Shown piece by piece: positions 38,634 through 48,725 of a stretch of DNA of 50,535 nucleotides. Position numbers and translations under genes: made by a program. Where the stretch lies: assembly GCA_003134515.1 (NCBI GenBank), contig PLBM01000042.1, positions 1 to 50,535 on the forward strand, in the 5' to 3' direction. Every line of letters starts with the position of its first letter. Within the stretch, counting starts at the first letter, position 1. This DNA comes from Acidimicrobiaceae bacterium. Lineage in GTDB: Bacteria > Actinomycetota > Acidimicrobiia > Acidimicrobiales > RAAP-2. Below the pieces are notes generated by a model. That model worked only from the letters and a program-made list of their open reading frames with translations. It did no database searches and was not told the origin of the DNA.

Positions 38634-38800
38634 AACCACCTCCCCTCCCACTTCTACTCTCACAGTAGTGACTTAGACGGTCACTCTTCGTTACGTTTAA
38701 TTAATGTCCGCTGAGACCGGTTGCGACTTAGAGGCGTCTTAGAGATCCTCGCGTCCGGTCCGGTAGAATGGCCAAAGTACGAGTATTTCTAAGGAGTTTC

Positions 38801-39079
38801 GTGAGCCAGGTTCCGACAAGTGAAGTCACCGAGGTCGTCGATCCGGTCGGTCACGTCCAGGTCATCTACCTCGGCCCGGTGGCGCCGCACTGGGAGTGTC
38901 GCATGGTCTTTGGCGACGAAGAGCAGATCCAGGCCTTCGTGGACCGGGTGGACGCGCGCCTGCGGTTCTTGCCGCCCCACGACCCGCAGTTTCGCCGCAA
39001 CCGCGAGCGCGTCAATCGCGACGCCGAGCGTGAGAACCTGCTCGTGGAGTGGAACCTCGGCTACGACGAAGAGAGTTAG
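38801..39079 (+). CDS. conserved-looking small protein of unknown function
   Basis: GTG start after AAGGAG; upstream TAGAAT -10-like at 38764; 92 aa, soluble. Confidence 0.6.
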   Translation: MSQVPTSEVTEVVDPVGHVQVIYLGPVAPHWECRMVFGDEEQIQAFVDRVDARLRFLPPHDPQFRRNRERVNRDAERENLLVEWNLGYDEES

Positions 39080-40197
39080 GCCAGCGGCGAGTTCGTCACC
39101 CGCTCGTACCAGGCGGCGGGATCGTGCAGTTCGCTCGCGCTCGGTAGGCCGTCCACTCGAAGCAGGGCGCCAAACACACTGAGTGAGTGCTCGGCGACGA
39201 GCGTGGCGACAAACGCCGTCGCCGCGTCGTGGTGCGGTCCCTGGGTCGTGATGCCAAAGAGCGCCGCAGCCGCGTCTTCGCCGCGCGCGTCGCTTCGACG
39301 GTGACGCGCGTACGCTTCGACCAGTGCCGGGCGCGGTCCGAGCAGGGTTTCGGTGATGTCCTGGGCCGCCGCGCAGAAAAAGGCCAGCAGCACGCTGGTG
39401 GCGGCGTTGATGGCCCGCGTGGCGTCGCTCTCTTCGGGCACGTTGATGCCGTCGAGCAGCGACGCGGGGTCGTTCATCATCTCGTTGATGTCGCCACTTT
39501 CCATCATCGTCTGGAGACGCCCCATCAGATCGCCCTGGACGGCGTGGGCCTCGTTAACGGTGTCGATCAGCAACGCACGCAACGCGTCGCCGGTGCCCGG
39601 CTGGGTGAGGACCAGCGAGGCCACGAACTCTTGGGCCAGCGCGAAGACGTAGACCTCGTCGCGCTCGAGCGACCACTCGCTGGCAAACGTCGCGAGGTTG
39701 TTCACCACGAGTAGTCGCTGTTCGTCGACGCGAGGTAGCGGCAGTACCGCGAGGCTCCAGGCGCGCGCCGAGAAGTGCCCCGCGACTGAGCCCATCTGAA
39801 AGCCCGTGAAGAGCGGACCGATGGTCGAGGCGATCTGGGCCATCATTTGAGTACCCGCGACGTCGAGCTCGTCGCTCGCCGCGAGCGGCGTGGGCATCAT
39901 GGGCGCCATCAAGGGGCGCCACTGTTCGAGCGCCGCCGTCGTCAGCGCCGAACGGTTGACGGCCACGATCGAGGGCTCGCGCGAGACGCCAAAGAGGGCG
40001 TCGACGTGTCGACCCACCAGGGGGGCCAACTCTTCGAGACGCTGGCGTTCGATGGGTAAAGGGTTGGGATCACCGTCATCGCCCCGAGCGATATTGAGGG
40101 CCAGCTGGCTCGCCGTGGTGAACCAGGCGTCGGGCCCCTGCTGGCTGAGCATCGAAAAGATGTCGCCGAACATGTCGCCGAAAGGATTGGTGGTCAC
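39076..40197 (-). CDS. DUF2342-like (zinc-dependent metalloprotease family) protein lacking HExxH
   Basis: Family-like layout (NPFGDMFGDIFSML; MGSVAGHFSARAWSLAVLPLP; LLVVNNLATFASEWSLERDEVYVFALAQEFVASLVL). Confidence 0.65.
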   Translation of the reverse strand: MTTNPFGDMFGDIFSMLSQQGPDAWFTTASQLALNIARGDDGDPNPLPIERQRLEELAPLVGRHVDALFGVSREPSIVAVNRSALTTAALEQWRPLMAPMMPTPLAASDELDVAGTQMMAQIASTIGPLFTGFQMGSVAGHFSARAWSLAVLPLPRVDEQRLLVVNNLATFASEWSLERDEVYVFALAQEFVASLVLTQPGTGDALRALLIDTVNEAHAVQGDLMGRLQTMMESGDINEMMNDPASLLDGINVPEESDATRAINAATSVLLAFFCAAAQDITETLLGPRPALVEAYARHRRSDARGEDAAAALFGITTQGPHHDAATAFVATLVAEHSLSVFGALLRVDGLPSASELHDPAAWYERVTNSPLA

Positions 40198-41288
40198 GAC
40201 ACCAACTTAGAGGGACATCCGAGCGTCACACTCGCGTGGCGCACTGCCGTCTTCCAGTCAATCGTGAGACGCGCCGAGGTGTAGGCCGGGGTCAAGTACA
40301 ACGTCGACACCAGCTGTTCCCAGGTATTGAGGTCCGCGCCGTTCCAGTGGGTGATGACGTCGCCGACGATGACGTTGGCGTGCGCCGCGGCACTGTAGGG
40401 CTCGACCTTGGTGACGAGCACGCCGCCCCCTTGTTCGTTCTTACCCGAGATGCCAAGATCCGCGTGACACCCCCGTCCGGTCGCCACTACTTCGGCGACC
40501 TGGGCGACGAAGCGCGCCGCGTACCACTGGTGACGAGAAGAAAGTACCGCCACCACGTAGCCCTTCGCGTCGACCGCGATGGCGTCGACGAAGCCACTAA
40601 GGCTGGTATCGGACTTCGTGGCGAGGTAGCGCACGACCCCGACGGCGTTATTCGAGGGATCACCGAGCGTGGTCAGCGACCAGTCGTACTCGGGCGTCGC
40701 CGACGTTCCTTTCAAAATGGGCGCCACGGCGATAACCGAGGTGCTCGAGGGCATGGGGTCGAGTTTCAGGGCGGTCACCGGCACGCTCAAGCGCACGATC
40801 GAAAAACCCATCACGTTGTCGTGACCGACGAGCGTGACGGGAAAGTTGGCCTTGGTCGCGGTCGACCCGCTGATGAGCGCATTGACGGGGATGGCGACCG
40901 TGGTCACCGCCAAATCGTGGGGTAGCACGAGGGCCGCGACGTAGACGACGTGACCCGATGACGAAATCGTGAGATCGACGGTGTTGGCCGCGGCAACACG
41001 ACTCGACGCCGGCAGCGCGCTGAGGGTGGTCGCGAGGTGTGCGGGCAAGTTGGCGGCGGGCGTGCCCGCGCCTCGATTGACCACTAATACGACGCCGCCG
41101 ACGACTAAGAGCAGCGCCATCACGCCCGCAGTGACCCGCGGGCTGAGGGATCGGGTCCGGATACTCGTCGTGGTCGCCAACGCCTCAAAGCTCGGCAATT
41201 CGCTCGGATGGACCCAGGGACGGCTTTCGACCGGCGGTCTCGCGCGACGACCCGATCGCCGCCATCTCGAAAAATTCCATCCAGCCAC
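40194..41288 (-). CDS. membrane-anchored trypsin/HtrA-like PDZ protein, apparently non-catalytic
   Basis: One N-terminal TM; protease-like core; C-terminal PDZ GGGVLVTKVEPYSAAAHANVIVGDVITHWNG. Confidence 0.7.
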   Translation of the reverse strand: MAGWNFSRWRRSGRRARPPVESRPWVHPSELPSFEALATTTSIRTRSLSPRVTAGVMALLLVVGGVVLVVNRGAGTPAANLPAHLATTLSALPASSRVAAANTVDLTISSSGHVVYVAALVLPHDLAVTTVAIPVNALISGSTATKANFPVTLVGHDNVMGFSIVRLSVPVTALKLDPMPSSTSVIAVAPILKGTSATPEYDWSLTTLGDPSNNAVGVVRYLATKSDTSLSGFVDAIAVDAKGYVVAVLSSRHQWYAARFVAQVAEVVATGRGCHADLGISGKNEQGGGVLVTKVEPYSAAAHANVIVGDVITHWNGADLNTWEQLVSTLYLTPAYTSARLTIDWKTAVRHASVTLGCPSKLVS

Positions 41289-41345
41289 GGGTTAAAGGCT
41301 AGTAACCAAAGGGTTCTTAATGCCGTCGCCCTAACATCGCTAGTC

Positions 41346-42350
41346 ATGGCTGTAGACGTCGCACTCGACATTGGAACCTCGCGCACGCGCTTGGCGACCA
41401 GTCAACGCGGTGTGCTGTTCGACGAACCCACGATGGTCGCGATTGACAACAACTCCGGGGTCGTCGTGGAGCTCGGACACGGTGCGCTGGAACTGGTCGG
41501 GCGCACGTCGCGCCACGTTGTGGTGTTTCGACCCTTCGCGCAAGGCGCCACCGTTGACTTCGACGTGACCGCACGGCTGATCGCCGCGCTCTTTGACCGC
41601 GCGGGCGTGTCCAAACTCTCTCGAGCTCGCGTGGTGATGAGTGTGCCGTCACTGGCCACGGCCATCGAACGGCGTGCGCTTCGCCAAGCCGCCATTCAAG
41701 CCGGCGCGCGCGAGGTCAGCTTGGTCGAGGCGCCGCTCGCCGCCGCGATTGGTCTAGGTCTGCCCGTCCAAGATCCGGTCGGCTCGGCCGTGACGCTACT
41801 GGGTGCGGGCGCGTCCGAGGCGGCCATCATCTCGTTGGGCGGCATCGTCACCGGCGGCGCGCGTCGCCTCGGCGGCAACGACGTCGACGCGGCCATCGCG
41901 ACGCTGCTGCGACTCAACTTGGGTGTCGTGGTCGCGTCGTCAATCGTCGAGATGCTCAAATGCACCTTGGCGTCCGCCCTAGGGCGAACTGCGGGACTCG
42001 TGGAAGTCGTGCTGGCTCGAAGTGTTGATCGAGGCGAGTTGGTGCAGGTTGAAGTCAGCGCCGAGTTGGTGAACGCGGCCGCGCGCGACGTGCTCAACTC
42101 AACGATTCGCATGATCCAAGAGTGTCTTGGGGACACAGCGCCGGACCTCTCCCAGGACGTCAGCGCAAGAGGCATGACGCTGGTGGGCGGCCACGCCAAT
42201 TTACGAGACTTCGATGAGTTGGTGGCGATCTCTACCGGGGTCGAGGTAAACGTTGCGAGTCAATCAGACCTGGTCGTCATTCACGGACTGCAGGCCTGTC
42301 TTGAAGAGATGGCCTCTCTTCACGCGCTCTTTCGAAGCGCCGACCGCTAA
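41346..42350 (+). CDS. MreB/actin-like protein, divergent
   Basis: DIGTSRTRLA; DEPTMVAID; RPFAQGATVDFDVTARLI; EAPLAAAIGLGLPVQDPVGSAVTLLGAGASEAAIISLGGIV; TLVGGHANLRDFDELVAISTGVEV. Confidence 0.85.
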   Translation: MAVDVALDIGTSRTRLATSQRGVLFDEPTMVAIDNNSGVVVELGHGALELVGRTSRHVVVFRPFAQGATVDFDVTARLIAALFDRAGVSKLSRARVVMSVPSLATAIERRALRQAAIQAGAREVSLVEAPLAAAIGLGLPVQDPVGSAVTLLGAGASEAAIISLGGIVTGGARRLGGNDVDAAIATLLRLNLGVVVASSIVEMLKCTLASALGRTAGLVEVVLARSVDRGELVQVEVSAELVNAAARDVLNSTIRMIQECLGDTAPDLSQDVSARGMTLVGGHANLRDFDELVAISTGVEVNVASQSDLVVIHGLQACLEEMASLHALFRSADR

Positions 42351-42979
42351 CGCTCGGTGTGGCGCAGTTGGGTCACGGCCGAGCGCACCTGCCAGTCCCG
42401 GTCGTCGCTGGCGCGCTCGAGCGCAGCCTCGACGTCGGGGCCCTCAAAATTCGATAGGGCGACGATGGCGCGCCGACGTACCGGCGGTTTGTCCTCTAAC
42501 GCGTTGATGATCGTCGCTCGAGCGCGGTCGTCACCGATCGCGCCCAGGGCCGCCACGGCGCACTCGCGACAGCGAGCGTCGTCGTGGTGCGCGGCGACGT
42601 CGCAGAGTTCCACGACGGCACCGACATAGAGATGTTCACCCAGCGCGAAAGCCGCCCCATCGACGACGAGCGCGTCGTCGTCGCGCAGCATTCGCACGAC
42701 GTCGTCGAGCACCGAGGAGTCCTCGAGCGACGCGTGGGCCAGCTGTTGCAGCCCTTCACGGCGAATCTCGACATTCTCGTCGCCGAGCGCGCGGCGCCAG
42801 AGATCGGGGTTGACGAGCGATTGGCGAACCAGGCCGCGCAGGGCCAACACGCGATGACGAACGTGGGGGGAGTCCAAGTGCAACCTCAAGAGTGCCTCGC
42901 CGTTTTCGCCCAAGGCGAAACTCGTACGTAGCAGTTGGTTCTCTAAGGGTTCCACTAGCGTTGCGTCATCACTTGGCAC
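42347..42979 (-). CDS. HEAT-repeat protein
   Basis: Tandem HEAT-like helices (VRHRVLALRGLV, CRECAVAALGAIGD, RRRAIVALSNF, WQVRSAVTQL). Confidence 0.8.
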   Translation of the reverse strand: MPSDDATLVEPLENQLLRTSFALGENGEALLRLHLDSPHVRHRVLALRGLVRQSLVNPDLWRRALGDENVEIRREGLQQLAHASLEDSSVLDDVVRMLRDDDALVVDGAAFALGEHLYVGAVVELCDVAAHHDDARCRECAVAALGAIGDDRARATIINALEDKPPVRRRAIVALSNFEGPDVEAALERASDDRDWQVRSAVTQLRHTER

Positions 42980-43024: not shown

Positions 43025-44101
43025 GTGTTAGTGACTGCCGCGATCCTGATCGCTCTCGTGCTGGGACTGCACGCGTGGAACACATCGGAGTACGCGCTCA
43101 CCCCGGGCAATGCAACGCCGGTGGCACCGTTGGTGAAGATCCACGGCGTCGCGACGAATCCTCATCACGACAAGATCATGCTCGCCGATGTCTACCTTCA
43201 GTCACTGACAGCCTGGCAGTGGTTGACCATGCACTTTCAATCTCACGTCCAGTTCGTGCCCGCCAGCGAGCTCGTGAATCCGGGTATTCCCAGTGATGAA
43301 CTCGGGGCGCAGGGGTTTCTCGAAATGCGCGATGCCAAACAGGCCGCGGAAGTGACGGCCTTTCGTTCGTTGGGCTGGACGGTGCGCGCCACGCGAACGG
43401 GCGCGATCGTGAATGGCGTGGTGTCACCGTCGCCGGCCCGCTCGGCGAACGTGCACGTCGGCGACGAGATCGTGGCCGTGAACGGCACGCCGGTGCGTTC
43501 GACATGCCAACTCATTGGTTACGTTCACGACCTCGCGCCGGGCACGAAGGTGCGACTCAGTATTGAGCGCGTGAAGATCTCCAACTCCGGGACGTTGTCG
43601 TGGCGCGCGCCGATGACTTTGAATATGCGAACGGCCAGCGTGGCGAGCGGCGTCGGTGCTTCGGGGTGCGTCGGACTGACGGGTCGGGCTCGGTCGTGGC
43701 TGGGCGTGTCGGGCGAGGACGGATACAGCTATCTACTGCCCGCGAGCGTGTCGATCGATACCGCCGACATCGGCGGACCATCGGCGGGACTGGCGATGAC
43801 GTTGTCGCTCATCAATGAACTAAGCGGCGGATCACTGACGGGGCATCACGTCATCGCCGCCACCGGCACCATCGACGTTAAGGGCAACGTCGGCGACGTC
43901 GGTGGCGTGGCGCAAAAGACCGTCGCGGTGCAACGCGCGGGAGCGACCTTCTTCTTCGTGCCCCAAGTGGAGGTGGCAGCGGCGCGCGCCGCGGCCTCAC
44001 CGGGACTCACGATCCTCGGCGTGACGACACTGCGCCAAGCGCTGCGCGACCTGCGAAGCCTCGGCGGCGTTGCGCCCCAGCCCCTCACCGCGCCCTCCTA
44101 A
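43025..44101 (+). CDS. PDZ-Lon protease domain protein (YlbL-like)
   Basis: N-terminal TM; PDZ; Lon-like GGPSAGLAMTL and GGVAQKTVAVQRAGATFFFVP (Ser/Lys dyad present). Confidence 0.92.
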   Translation: MLVTAAILIALVLGLHAWNTSEYALTPGNATPVAPLVKIHGVATNPHHDKIMLADVYLQSLTAWQWLTMHFQSHVQFVPASELVNPGIPSDELGAQGFLEMRDAKQAAEVTAFRSLGWTVRATRTGAIVNGVVSPSPARSANVHVGDEIVAVNGTPVRSTCQLIGYVHDLAPGTKVRLSIERVKISNSGTLSWRAPMTLNMRTASVASGVGASGCVGLTGRARSWLGVSGEDGYSYLLPASVSIDTADIGGPSAGLAMTLSLINELSGGSLTGHHVIAATGTIDVKGNVGDVGGVAQKTVAVQRAGATFFFVPQVEVAAARAAASPGLTILGVTTLRQALRDLRSLGGVAPQPLTAPS

Positions 44102-44139: not shown

Positions 44140-45804
44140 ATGGACGACCGGCGATCACTTTCTTCGACGCGCCAATCGTCGTCCGAGATTGCTCGGGCAA
44201 ACTTCACGACCCTGCGCAAGGGTGGCGTCGATCCCAACGAGGTTCGCCTTCACTTAGAAGCGGTCGCGCGTGAGATGGGCCACCTCGAGCACCGCATTCG
44301 TGAACTCCAAGAACAGCTGAGCGAATCCCAGCGACGCGTGGCCAATCCCATCCTGGACGAGGCGACCTTGACTGGTGCGCTGGGCTCGCAGAGTGCGGCG
44401 ATACTTCGCTCGGCCCACGAAGAGGCCGGTCGGGTCACCGCCGAAGCACAAGAACGTAGTGCGCAAGTCTTCACCGAGAGCCAACAGCGCAGTGCCGGAC
44501 ACCTCATCGAGGCGCAAGAGCGCGCTACGGCGTTGATCACCGAGGCCGAGAACACGGCCCTGCAGATCGATCACGAAGCGCGCTTGGCCGCCGAGCGACT
44601 TATCGATTCGGCCAAGGTGAATGGTGAAGCGCTCATTGATCGCGCGAGAGAGCAAGGGCGCGCCATCGTTGAGCAGTCCAACGAGGCCCGTCGCACCGTT
44701 TTGAACGACCTCGCCGTCAATCGCAAGGCGTTGCAAATGCAGATCGAGCAACTTCGCGCGGCGCGCGACACCCTGGGCTCGTTCGTCTCGATGGTGCGCC
44801 AACAGGTGGACGACGTGGTGTCGGGTATCGACTCATCTGACGAAGTGGCGCGCGCCGCCGCGCTCGACGCGCTGCGCCAACACTCCAACGCGCCTGAACC
44901 GAGCGAAGAGGAGTTGCTCGCCGGCACGCCCTTACGCGAAGTGCCCGAGAACACGCCCGACGCGCCCGCGGATCCGAACGCCCCCAAATCGCGTTCGCGC
45001 AGGGCCACCAAGGGCGCCGCGCCGGCCGAGTCGCTGCTCGAAGACGATCCGTCGGGCACCGATGTCGTCAACGAGATCTTCGCCCGACTGAGAAAGGCGA
45101 CGCTCGAAGAGCGCGGCGCCTCGGCGCACGCCCCCCGAAAGGTTCCCGCGCACAAGCTCGAGACGCCCGTCGGCGAGCTCTTTCGTCGCCGGGACCAAGC
45201 ACTCGACGAGTCGCTCACGGTGCTGACCCGACGGGTCAAGCGAGCTCTCCAGGACGATCAAAACATCATGCTGGAGCGTCTGCGCGACGTGAAGGCCATG
45301 ATCACGACCGAATTGGAAGATGAGCACGCCCAGCGCGCGCGCTACGCCGAGTCGGCCTACGAGGCCCTCGCGCACGCGGCGGGTGCCGGTGAGCAGTTCG
45401 CCAGAGATGAGGGCGGCGTCGCGGGCGCGCCCCTTTCCAGGGCGGCGCTTGACGACTGCGCGGCCGATCTGGCCGTCACGATCGTGCTGGCTCTGCGCAA
45501 GAAGATCTTGGCCGACGGCAGTGGCGGGGGCACCGAGCGCGCGAACGCGGCCTATCGCGAGTGGCGCGGCGCGCGCGTCGAGCGACTCTGCACCGACGCC
45601 GCCCGACGGGCCTTTCACTTAGGCGTCGTGACGGCCGCCCAGGGCCGTCTCATTCGCTTTGTCGCAGCGCCCAACGACGCGCCGTGTGACGCGTGCGCGC
45701 GCGACGCGGCGAGCGCGGAGCGCCCCGCCGGCGATAATTTTCCCAGCGGCGCGCCGTACCCTCCGCTGCATGCGGGCTGTGCTTGCGCTGTCGTGCCCGT
45801 GTAA
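44140..45804 (+). CDS. DivIVA-like coiled-coil protein with Mu gpF/SPP1 gp7-like C-terminal domain
   Basis: N-terminal LHLEAVAREMGHLEHRIRELQEQL; long coiled coil; C-terminus CDACARDAASAERPAGDNFPSGAPYPPLHAGCACAVVPV. Confidence 0.65.
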   Translation: MDDRRSLSSTRQSSSEIARANFTTLRKGGVDPNEVRLHLEAVAREMGHLEHRIRELQEQLSESQRRVANPILDEATLTGALGSQSAAILRSAHEEAGRVTAEAQERSAQVFTESQQRSAGHLIEAQERATALITEAENTALQIDHEARLAAERLIDSAKVNGEALIDRAREQGRAIVEQSNEARRTVLNDLAVNRKALQMQIEQLRAARDTLGSFVSMVRQQVDDVVSGIDSSDEVARAAALDALRQHSNAPEPSEEELLAGTPLREVPENTPDAPADPNAPKSRSRRATKGAAPAESLLEDDPSGTDVVNEIFARLRKATLEERGASAHAPRKVPAHKLETPVGELFRRRDQALDESLTVLTRRVKRALQDDQNIMLERLRDVKAMITTELEDEHAQRARYAESAYEALAHAAGAGEQFARDEGGVAGAPLSRAALDDCAADLAVTIVLALRKKILADGSGGGTERANAAYREWRGARVERLCTDAARRAFHLGVVTAAQGRLIRFVAAPNDAPCDACARDAASAERPAGDNFPSGAPYPPLHAGCACAVVPV

Positions 45805-45824: not shown

Positions 45825-48725
45825 GTGCGAAGTCCCACCGACGTCCCCTCGCGTCCCCGGCGTATCGGACGGCTCTCGCGGCGATTCTGGATTGGACTGA
45901 TCTTCGTCGTCCTGCTGGTCGGCTTTCTCTCCCTGCGCAACCTGGCGGTGCTGTGGACCGATCAGATGTGGTTCTCATCGGTAGGGCTTTCGAGCGTCTT
46001 TTCCACGCTGTTCTTCGTCAAGGTGGGGCTGTGCTTCACTTTTGGCGCGATTTTCTTCTTCATCATGTGGGGCAATCTCTTGCTCACCGATCGATTCGGC
46101 GCGCGCGATCTCTCCTTTGACCCCGAAGACGAGGTCGTGCGACGTTTTCAAAACGTCGTACGGCCCTACGCCAAGCGCATCTACGCGGCAATCGCGCTGG
46201 TCATGGGCCTCATCGCCGGGCTCAACGCGACGGGCCAGTGGCAGAAGTACTTACTTTTCTCTCACGCGCAGTCGTTTCACATCACGGACCCGGTCTTTCA
46301 CAAAGACCTGGGCTTTTACGTCTTTACGCTGCCTTTTATCTCGTTCGTGGTGACGTGGTTCCTCGTCATTCTCATCCTGGCGCTTCTGGTCACGACGGGC
46401 TTTCACTTCTTGAACGGCGGTATCCGTACCACACGCGCCACGCCGCGGGTGTCGCCGCGGGTGAAGGCCCACCTGTCGGTGATCGGCGCGGCCATCGCTC
46501 TGATGAAGGCGGCGGGCTATCTGCTGGCTAAGTGGGAGTTGGTCAACTCCACCAACGGCTACGCGCAGGGCGCGAGCTACACCGACGTTCACGCCCGCAT
46601 GCCGGCGCTGACCATACTCTTCTACCTTTCGCTGGCCGCCGCAGCAATTCTCTTGTACAACGTGCGCTCGAGGGGCTGGTCGTTGCCGGTGGTGGCGGTC
46701 GGGCTCTGGGTTTTCGTCGCGCTCGTGATTGGCGTGCTCTATCCGACGTTCCTCCAGGCCCTAAAGGTCAGTCCCAACCAGCAGTCACTGGAGTCGCCGT
46801 ACATCCAGCGCAATATCAGCGCGACTCGCGCGGCCTTTGGCCTCGACAGCGTGAAGTACCACGCCTTCGCCGGCTCGACTTCCATCACTGAATCCCAGAT
46901 CAAGGCCAACAAGCCGACGTTGAACAACATCCGACTCTGGGATCCGGCGAACACGATTGCCTTAGAGACGGTGACCCGCCGCCAGTCGATTCGTTCCTAC
47001 TACACGTTCTCCACGTTGTCGGTGGATCGTTACTACATAAACGGCAAGTTGACGCCGGTCTTGATCGGGGCCCGTCAACTCAACACCGCGAGCTTGCCTT
47101 CGCAGAGTTGGGTCAACCAGCACCTGCAGTACACCCACGGCATCGGCGCGGCGGTGGTGGCCGCGAACCAGGTCGACGCCGCGACGGGCAACCCCAACTT
47201 CGTCGTGTCGAACGTCCCACCGGCGTCGACCAACGGCATGCCGACCTTGACCGAGCCCGACATCTACTTTGGCATCAACGACCCCGGATGGGTGGTGGCC
47301 AACTCCAAGCAGCCCGAACTCGACTACCAGGTGAACGCGGGCGCGAACGCGGGCTCGCCCGTTGAATCGCACTACGCGAGCACCGGGGGCGTCGCGGTGG
47401 GCAACATCTTTTCTCGCATGGCGCTCGCGCTACGCCTCGGCGACTTCAACTTTCTCATCTCGAACCAGATCGACTCGAAGAGCCGCGTGCTCTTCGTGCG
47501 CGACGTGCGCCAGATGGTCCAAAAGGCCGCGCCGTTCCTCTCCTTTGACTCCCAGCCCTACGCCGTTATCGCCAACGGCCAGGTGCAGTACGTGCTGGAC
47601 GGCTACACGACGACGAGCCAGTACCCCTACAGCGAGAGCGCCTCGCAGCTCGGCATCACGATGGGCGGTCTGCCCAGCAACTTCAACTACGCGCGCAACT
47701 CAGTCAAGGTGGTCGTCAACGCTTACACCGGATCGATGAAGTTCTACGCCAATGACCCCAACGACCCCATCTTGAAGGCCTACCGCTCGGCCTTCCCCTC
47801 GATGTTCCAGCCCCTAAGTGCGATGCCCTCGACGATTCGCTCGCACCTGCGCTATCCCACGGACCTTTTCTCCGCTCAGGCCGCGACCTTGGGGCGCTAC
47901 CACATCACCTCGGCCAGCGCCTTTTACAGCGCGTCGGACCGCTGGGAGGTCTCGCCCACGACGGGCGCGGGCTCACCCTCTGAGGCGCTCGCGCGCACGG
48001 CCGTGATTGACGCGGCGGGCAACGTGGTCTCCACGTCGCTCTCGCCGATGAGCCCCATCCTTCAAGTCGGTTCCCTGCCCAGCGCCAACCACCAACAGTT
48101 GCTCGAGACCATCGACTACGTGCCGGCGGGCAACTCCTCGACGGTCCAGAGCCTGACGGCGTTCATGGTCGCCACCAGCGACCCCTCCGACTACGGGCGA
48201 CTGAGCGTCTACGAGACCACCCGCGGCACCACGGTCACCGGCCCGCTGCAGGCCGACTCGGAGATTCAACAGACCTCCAAGGTCAGCTCAATCATCACGC
48301 CCTTGGACCAACACGGCTCGAACGTGATCCTGGGCAACAACTTGACGGTGCCGCTCGATTCCAGTGTGCTCTACATCCGTCCGCTCTACGTCACCAGCAC
48401 CTCGAACCCGATGCCCCAGCTGCGCTACGTGATCGCGGTCTTTAATCAAGACGTCGGCATCGAGCCGACGTTGGCTGGGGCGCTCTCGGACGTGCTCGGC
48501 GCGAACGTCAGTGGTCTGACGAGCACCCCCCCGACGGGCAACGGCAAAGGTAAGACCCCGCCCACCACGAGTGCCAGCGTGGCCTCCTATCTCCAACAGG
48601 CCTCGGCCGACTACGCCAACGCACAAAGGGCCCTGGCGAACGGGGACTTGGGGCTCTATCAAAAAGACGTCAACGCCATGAACCAGCAACTCGAACTGGC
48701 GCGGAACTCGCTCGGCGGCGGGTAG
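45825..48725 (+). CDS. UPF0182 family membrane protein
   Basis: 966 aa; seven N-terminal TM segments; IQRNISATRAAFGL; FVVSNVPP; EPDIYFG; FLSFDSQPYAVIANGQVQYVLDGYTT. Confidence 0.95.
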   Translation: MRSPTDVPSRPRRIGRLSRRFWIGLIFVVLLVGFLSLRNLAVLWTDQMWFSSVGLSSVFSTLFFVKVGLCFTFGAIFFFIMWGNLLLTDRFGARDLSFDPEDEVVRRFQNVVRPYAKRIYAAIALVMGLIAGLNATGQWQKYLLFSHAQSFHITDPVFHKDLGFYVFTLPFISFVVTWFLVILILALLVTTGFHFLNGGIRTTRATPRVSPRVKAHLSVIGAAIALMKAAGYLLAKWELVNSTNGYAQGASYTDVHARMPALTILFYLSLAAAAILLYNVRSRGWSLPVVAVGLWVFVALVIGVLYPTFLQALKVSPNQQSLESPYIQRNISATRAAFGLDSVKYHAFAGSTSITESQIKANKPTLNNIRLWDPANTIALETVTRRQSIRSYYTFSTLSVDRYYINGKLTPVLIGARQLNTASLPSQSWVNQHLQYTHGIGAAVVAANQVDAATGNPNFVVSNVPPASTNGMPTLTEPDIYFGINDPGWVVANSKQPELDYQVNAGANAGSPVESHYASTGGVAVGNIFSRMALALRLGDFNFLISNQIDSKSRVLFVRDVRQMVQKAAPFLSFDSQPYAVIANGQVQYVLDGYTTTSQYPYSESASQLGITMGGLPSNFNYARNSVKVVVNAYTGSMKFYANDPNDPILKAYRSAFPSMFQPLSAMPSTIRSHLRYPTDLFSAQAATLGRYHITSASAFYSASDRWEVSPTTGAGSPSEALARTAVIDAAGNVVSTSLSPMSPILQVGSLPSANHQQLLETIDYVPAGNSSTVQSLTAFMVATSDPSDYGRLSVYETTRGTTVTGPLQADSEIQQTSKVSSIITPLDQHGSNVILGNNLTVPLDSSVLYIRPLYVTSTSNPMPQLRYVIAVFNQDVGIEPTLAGALSDVLGANVSGLTSTPPTGNGKGKTPPTTSASVASYLQQASADYANAQRALANGDLGLYQKDVNAMNQQLELARNSLGGG

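Follow-up and report, generated by a model that had tools for sequence, protein, structure and literature searches.

Why should three adjacent genes in the genome of an Acidimicrobiaceae bacterium each encode the homologue of an enzyme whose active site appears to be dead, and do their products belong to a single device? An earlier reading of the letters alone (the original prediction) had proposed that these genes, for a DUF2342-like protein, a PDZ protein and an MreB-like protein, were not simply decaying, and that their products would form an envelope or polarity complex built from repurposed scaffolds. The stretch of DNA analysed, hereafter the window, is contig C84 (PLBM01000042.1; 50,535 nucleotides), from a genome of 2.0 Mb that is 83% complete. 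Among named records, those that come closest belong to Acidimicrobiaceae MAGs, with at most 97% identity in the MreB-like protein (MreB2), and their isolate names (palsa, bog, fen) suggest that the genus lives in peat and permafrost. The features of the locus are as follows:

38768–39079, plus strand: protein of 103 aa, family not known, adjoining the DUF2342 gene
39076–40197, minus strand: Zincin_2/DUF2342 gene (PF10103, E 1.1e-22)
40194–41288, minus strand: HtrA-like PDZ gene (PDZ_2, E 1.6e-07)
41346–42350, plus strand: MreB2 gene, second MreB paralogue (PF06723 MreB_Mbl, E 8.6e-75; best start ATG at 41346)
41730–41831 (approximate), plus strand: stretch of MreB2 with the changed catalytic residues, VEAPLAAAIG ... 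LLGAGASE (Ala for Glu, Leu for Asp, Ala for Thr)
42347–42979, minus strand: HEAT-repeat protein (HEAT_2, E 9.5e-17), a neighbour conserved by synteny
43025–44101, plus strand: PDZ and Lon-like (S16) protease (PDZ_2, E 7.7e-13; Lon_C, E 1.9e-08)
44140–45804, plus strand: DivIVA-like protein (PF05103, E 1.9e-08) whose C-terminal domain is unusual
45825–48725, plus strand: UPF0182 membrane protein (PF03699, E 5.1e-246), where the neighbourhood conserved by synteny ends

The genes announced as three consecutive ones do lie where they were placed, and all are intact, but their layout is that of a minus-strand pair (the DUF2342 and PDZ genes overlap by 4 bases) plus a divergent MreB2 on the plus strand, the ATG of which lies 57 bases from the PDZ gene. 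Pfam alignment of the three proteins recovered the domains Zincin_2, PDZ_2 and MreB_Mbl, with the catalytic motifs missing at the aligned sites.

The DUF2342 and HtrA-like proteins

In the first protein, AQEFVA had been read at the site of HExxH, and a DUF2342-family profile, which finds PDB 3cmn with an E of 3.5e-49, sets these residues precisely over HEMTHA; the profile was needed to reach 3cmn, as a PDB search with the DUF2342 sequence alone gave no match. Both His are gone from AQEFV, the motif Glu (E190) is retained, and among 44 homologues E190 is nearly invariant and E294 invariant. The AF2 model (pLDDT 85) has 3cmn as its sole significant PDB match (E 6e-6). The protein resembles DUF2342/Zincin_2 (PF10103; 3cmn) in a near full-length match and in fold, and differs in having no HExxH. 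The motif is found in none of the sampled DUF2342 members of family f1; outside this family the picture is mixed, with intact HELTH (L056), HEIAH (L064), HEVAH (L066), HEVVH (L067) and HEVTH (L070). Since a survey of 2013 found HExxH in only 43% of DUF2342 proteins (PMC3650047), the loss is real yet ordinary, common in its family and not special to this locus.

The second protein consists of an N-terminal WVHPSELP segment common to the order, a predicted helix (49–71), a trypsin-like domain and a PDZ domain, and is predicted to be a membrane-anchored relative of HtrA. Its AF2 model (pLDDT 81) has DegP, DegQ, DegS and M. tuberculosis HtrA as best PDB matches, and Foldseek gives E down to 7.5e-16 to DegP/HtrA with a TM of about 0.5; both models thus return the folds expected of their families. 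The triad columns were defined by L051, the only aligned relative in which all three of His, Asp and Ser occur; no aligned PDZ-family sequence has the full triad, and the window protein reads V, G, V, in agreement with the missing triad of the original prediction. Most relatives elsewhere in the order also lack it, and the loss of the HtrA-type triad is common in the family rather than special to the locus. The gene itself is dispensable, being missing from 22 of the 72 distinct loci of the genus that keep DUF2342 and MreB2 (about 30%). The protein shares the trypsin-like plus PDZ architecture of HtrA, DegP and DegS, but none of the three triad residues can be recognised in it. MamO is a proven non-catalytic HtrA relative (PMC4794232), and the likeness to it is general only: both active sites are degenerate, the PDZ protein has no known metal-binding role, and its WxHPSELP segment distinguishes it from MamO as well as from HtrA/DegP/DegS.

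MreB2 and the order of the losses

MreB, the bacterial actin, is a cell-shape protein. MreB2 follows the MreB_Mbl profile along residues 3–324 of its 333, and the alignment confirms LLGAGASE in place of DIGGGTTE. The losses go beyond those first noticed, extending to the catalytic Glu (Caulobacter E140), the Thr (Caulobacter T167) and the last Gly of GGG. The same genome holds a second, canonical MreB (G000:C87:6580-7542; PF06723, E 9.9e-147) with IEEP, DIGGGTTE and GGG intact, where MreB2 reads VEAP, LLGAGASE and GGH; it lies downstream of clpX-/folC-like ORFs and upstream of ORFs that by eye resemble MreC/MreD. Because an intact canonical MreB lies elsewhere in the genome, MreB2 is a second paralogue and not the sole MreB of the cell, a possibility that had been considered; the congeners likewise carry at least two MreB matches each.

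The genus set comprises 88 MreB2 sequences, 74 of them distinct. The catalytic Glu, the P2 Asp and the P2 Thr are present in none of the 88, as against 100% of 36 reference MreBs, a figure partly due to construction as these were picked for EEP and GGG; a contrast free of that selection comes from the MreB2s of other Acidimicrobiales families, which have Asp in 18/18, Thr in 18/18 and Gln in 18/18. In the genus, Glu has given way to Ala or Ser, the P2 Asp mostly to Val or Leu, and the P2 Thr to Ala, Ser or Val. In Caulobacter MreB, E140 and T167 are the residues that place the attacking water (PMC4051119), and the active-site residues of Spiroplasma MreB5 that were mutated for ATPase assays include E134, D156 and T161 (PMC9195046). 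From its residues, then, MreB2 would be a member of the MreB family by descent that is not a canonical ATPase. Sequencing or assembly error was rejected, as the changes are fixed across 74 distinct sequences, and no close homologue that retains either the catalytic Glu or the P2 Asp turned up in the genus.

MreB2 has retained the following: (i) the Asp of the P1 loop DxGT (88/88); (ii) the equivalents of Asp74, E205 and K208, and the hydrophobic residue of the membrane loop, in all or nearly all of the 88; (iii) at the two positions checked in the interfaces of the antiparallel double filaments that MreB forms on membranes, Ile at the inter-protofilament V118 position (88/88) and Gln at the intra-protofilament S283 position (86/88), Gln being common there in other MreBs. 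With the P1 and E/K residues kept, MreB2 may still bind nucleotide, and residual hydrolysis is possible; with the GER segment beside the E..K pair lost, nucleotide binding may be absent altogether, in which case filament formation would be unsure. Of 81 columns invariant in the reference MreBs, the genus keeps 56 and loses 17, and as some of these lie outside the nucleotide pocket, we do not claim that the losses are concentrated there.

An ML tree arranges the changes in steps. Related MreBs outside the class mostly read EEP, and the MreB2s of Acidimicrobiia read EQP; in a supported subclade of the family, Gln became Ala or Ser and GGG became GAG; the Asp disappeared in the clade formed by genus g214 and the genus of the window; and finally, the Thr and the last Gly were lost in the genus of the window. 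A MreB from outside the class (L242, of G457) reads MEQP, with Gln at the catalytic Glu, and the first step, from Glu to Gln, may have happened more than once. The DUF2342 loss is family-wide, and the HtrA triad is missing across most of the order; therefore the three active sites were not lost together, and a single coordinated loss was rejected on account of these different ages.

In comparisons against six close relatives, dN/dS was 0.05–0.11 for MreB2, 0.07–0.11 for DUF2342 and 0.13–0.22 for the PDZ protein, beside 0.09–0.13 for UPF0182 and 0.17–0.29 for the Lon-like protease, rough values in that they come from Nei-Gojobori counts and that dS, in several of the pairs compared, approached or exceeded 1. 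All three are working proteins under purifying selection, and with their frames intact the view that this is not simple decay holds good.

The conserved neighbourhood and the question of a complex

Throughout the genus, genes for WhiB, an FTCD-like protein, the 103-aa protein, DUF2342, (PDZ), MreB2, HEAT, Lon-PDZ, DivIVA-like and UPF0182 proteins remain clustered, and the block from MreB2 through HEAT, Lon and DivIVA to UPF0182 is also kept in several further families, so that gene order is conserved in the genus and in much of the order. By Pfam domain search, the neighbours of MreB2 belong to other families and are not mreC/mreD. Such a neighbourhood supports a functional link, not a physical complex.

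Some of these neighbours have features of their own. The Lon-like PDZ protease shows a GPSAG serine and a downstream Lys, by which its Ser-Lys dyad is apparently intact, in contrast to the active sites next to it. The C-terminal part of the DivIVA-like protein weakly resembles phage portal/minor head proteins (phrog_2662, E 4.9e-06), and its ending, CxxC ... FP(S/T)G ... PPxHxGCxC, is mostly conserved order-wide. The 103-aa protein is among the most conserved of the locus, with more than 90% identity in several congeners, and its place beside DUF2342 recurs in further families of the order. The congener G434, in which DUF2342 and MreB2 are missing, was considered as a natural knock-out and rejected, as its contig stops 36 bases past the DivIVA-like gene.

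The original prediction thus survives in two of its parts, namely that the proteins are maintained as non-catalytic ones, as their dN/dS indicates, and that they lie in a conserved neighbourhood of envelope/polarity type (HEAT, Lon-like PDZ, DivIVA-like, UPF0182). A joint complex of the three proteins is not supported, because the losses differ in time, the PDZ gene is often missing, MreB2 is divergent, and DUF2342-like proteins also occur with MreBs of canonical type only: G001, G007 and G014 have DUF2342-like matches and their best MreB matches are canonical-type, for which reason a strict co-occurrence of DUF2342 and MreB2 was rejected.

We favour, by a little better than an even chance, a second MreB that is hydrolysis-dead, yet maintained, and probably still able to assemble at the membrane. 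MreB2 would be a lineage-specific paralogue predicted to have lost ATP hydrolysis while keeping the actin-family profile, the P1 loop, the interface residues that were checked and the hydrophobic membrane loop; it would form a stable membrane-apposed filament, or enter the filaments of normal MreB as a non-hydrolysing subunit, and would scaffold the envelope proteins encoded alongside. The DUF2342 and HtrA-like PDZ proteins would be separate, older pseudo-proteases, their folds presumably kept for binding. More tentatively, and as a possibility to which we give considerably less credit, MreB2 could be a genus-wide MreB wholly without ATP hydrolysis that, static and membrane-bound, accompanies canonical MreB as a co-filament or caps it, a pseudo-actin scaffold tethering an envelope module of DivIVA, UPF0182 and the pseudo-proteases.

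Among the alternatives, the one that fares best, although we hold it to be unlikely, keeps the idea of the original prediction and dispenses with the filament: MreB2 would be an FtsA-like or single-subunit adaptor of actin fold that binds a partner (the HEAT or the DivIVA-like protein, for instance) and joins both pseudo-proteases in an envelope complex without catalytic activity. The conserved DivIVA-like, HEAT and UPF0182 neighbours, the reach of the nucleotide-site losses beyond the catalytic residues, and the similar constraint on Zincin_2 and MreB2 would all agree with it; on the other side stand the checked interface positions and the membrane loop, both conserved, the 22 loci without the PDZ gene and the losses that were not simultaneous, and synteny by itself is no proof of a complex. 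An improbable explanation is the ordinary drift of a dispensable paralogue, together with protease families prone to losing their active sites, with no shared or new function. The scarcity of HExxH among DUF2342 members and the triad-less HtrA-like homologues across most of the order would be expected from it, but the selection signal largely contradicts it: dN/dS is well below 1, that of MreB2 at or below its UPF0182 neighbour, the frames are open in all 74 distinct sequences, and the gene order is kept. Lastly, it is more improbable still that other residues, as alternative zinc ligands or nucleophile, sustain activity or that the losses are misalignments or sequencing errors, for E190 and E294 of the DUF2342 protein could leave some metal or substrate binding, but the changes are fixed in dozens of independent MAGs, the 3cmn alignment places the motif clearly with both His lost, and Glu, Asp and Thr of MreB2 are all gone.

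MreB2 among known MreB systems

Of the three losses, that of MreB2 is the real finding, those of DUF2342 and PDZ being ordinary. To our knowledge, the need of MreB for ATP hydrolysis is an open question, so far probed mainly by engineered mutants. With MreB2 and a normal MreB present in one genome, natural proteins could be used to test what hydrolysis does, and related genera offer the stepwise intermediates, from forms in which Gln is the sole change, through Ala/Ser forms that keep the Asp, to forms without the Asp. There is also a caution, in that the annotations “MreB,” “metalloprotease,” and “serine protease” in Acidimicrobiia need not mean enzymes.

A search of open-licence papers on MreB in Acidimicrobiia or on inactive MreB found no account of MreB2. 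Second paralogues of the family are known, as MreB/Mbl/MreBH, e.g., in Bacillus, and as Streptomyces Mbl (reviewed in PMC4255298). MreB2 is like them in standing beside a canonical MreB and in its full-length MreB_Mbl domain, and unlike them in its position, at a DUF2342/Lon-PDZ/DivIVA-like/UPF0182 locus rather than beside mreC/mreD; in MreB2 itself, moreover, the catalytic Glu, P2 Asp and P2 Thr are all lost. The closest precedent is Spiroplasma MreB3, in which part of the catalytic motif is missing and phosphate release is very slow, and which still polymerises (PMC9597168); its host, however, is wall-less, its changes are fewer and different, and MreB2 has in addition lost the P2 Asp.
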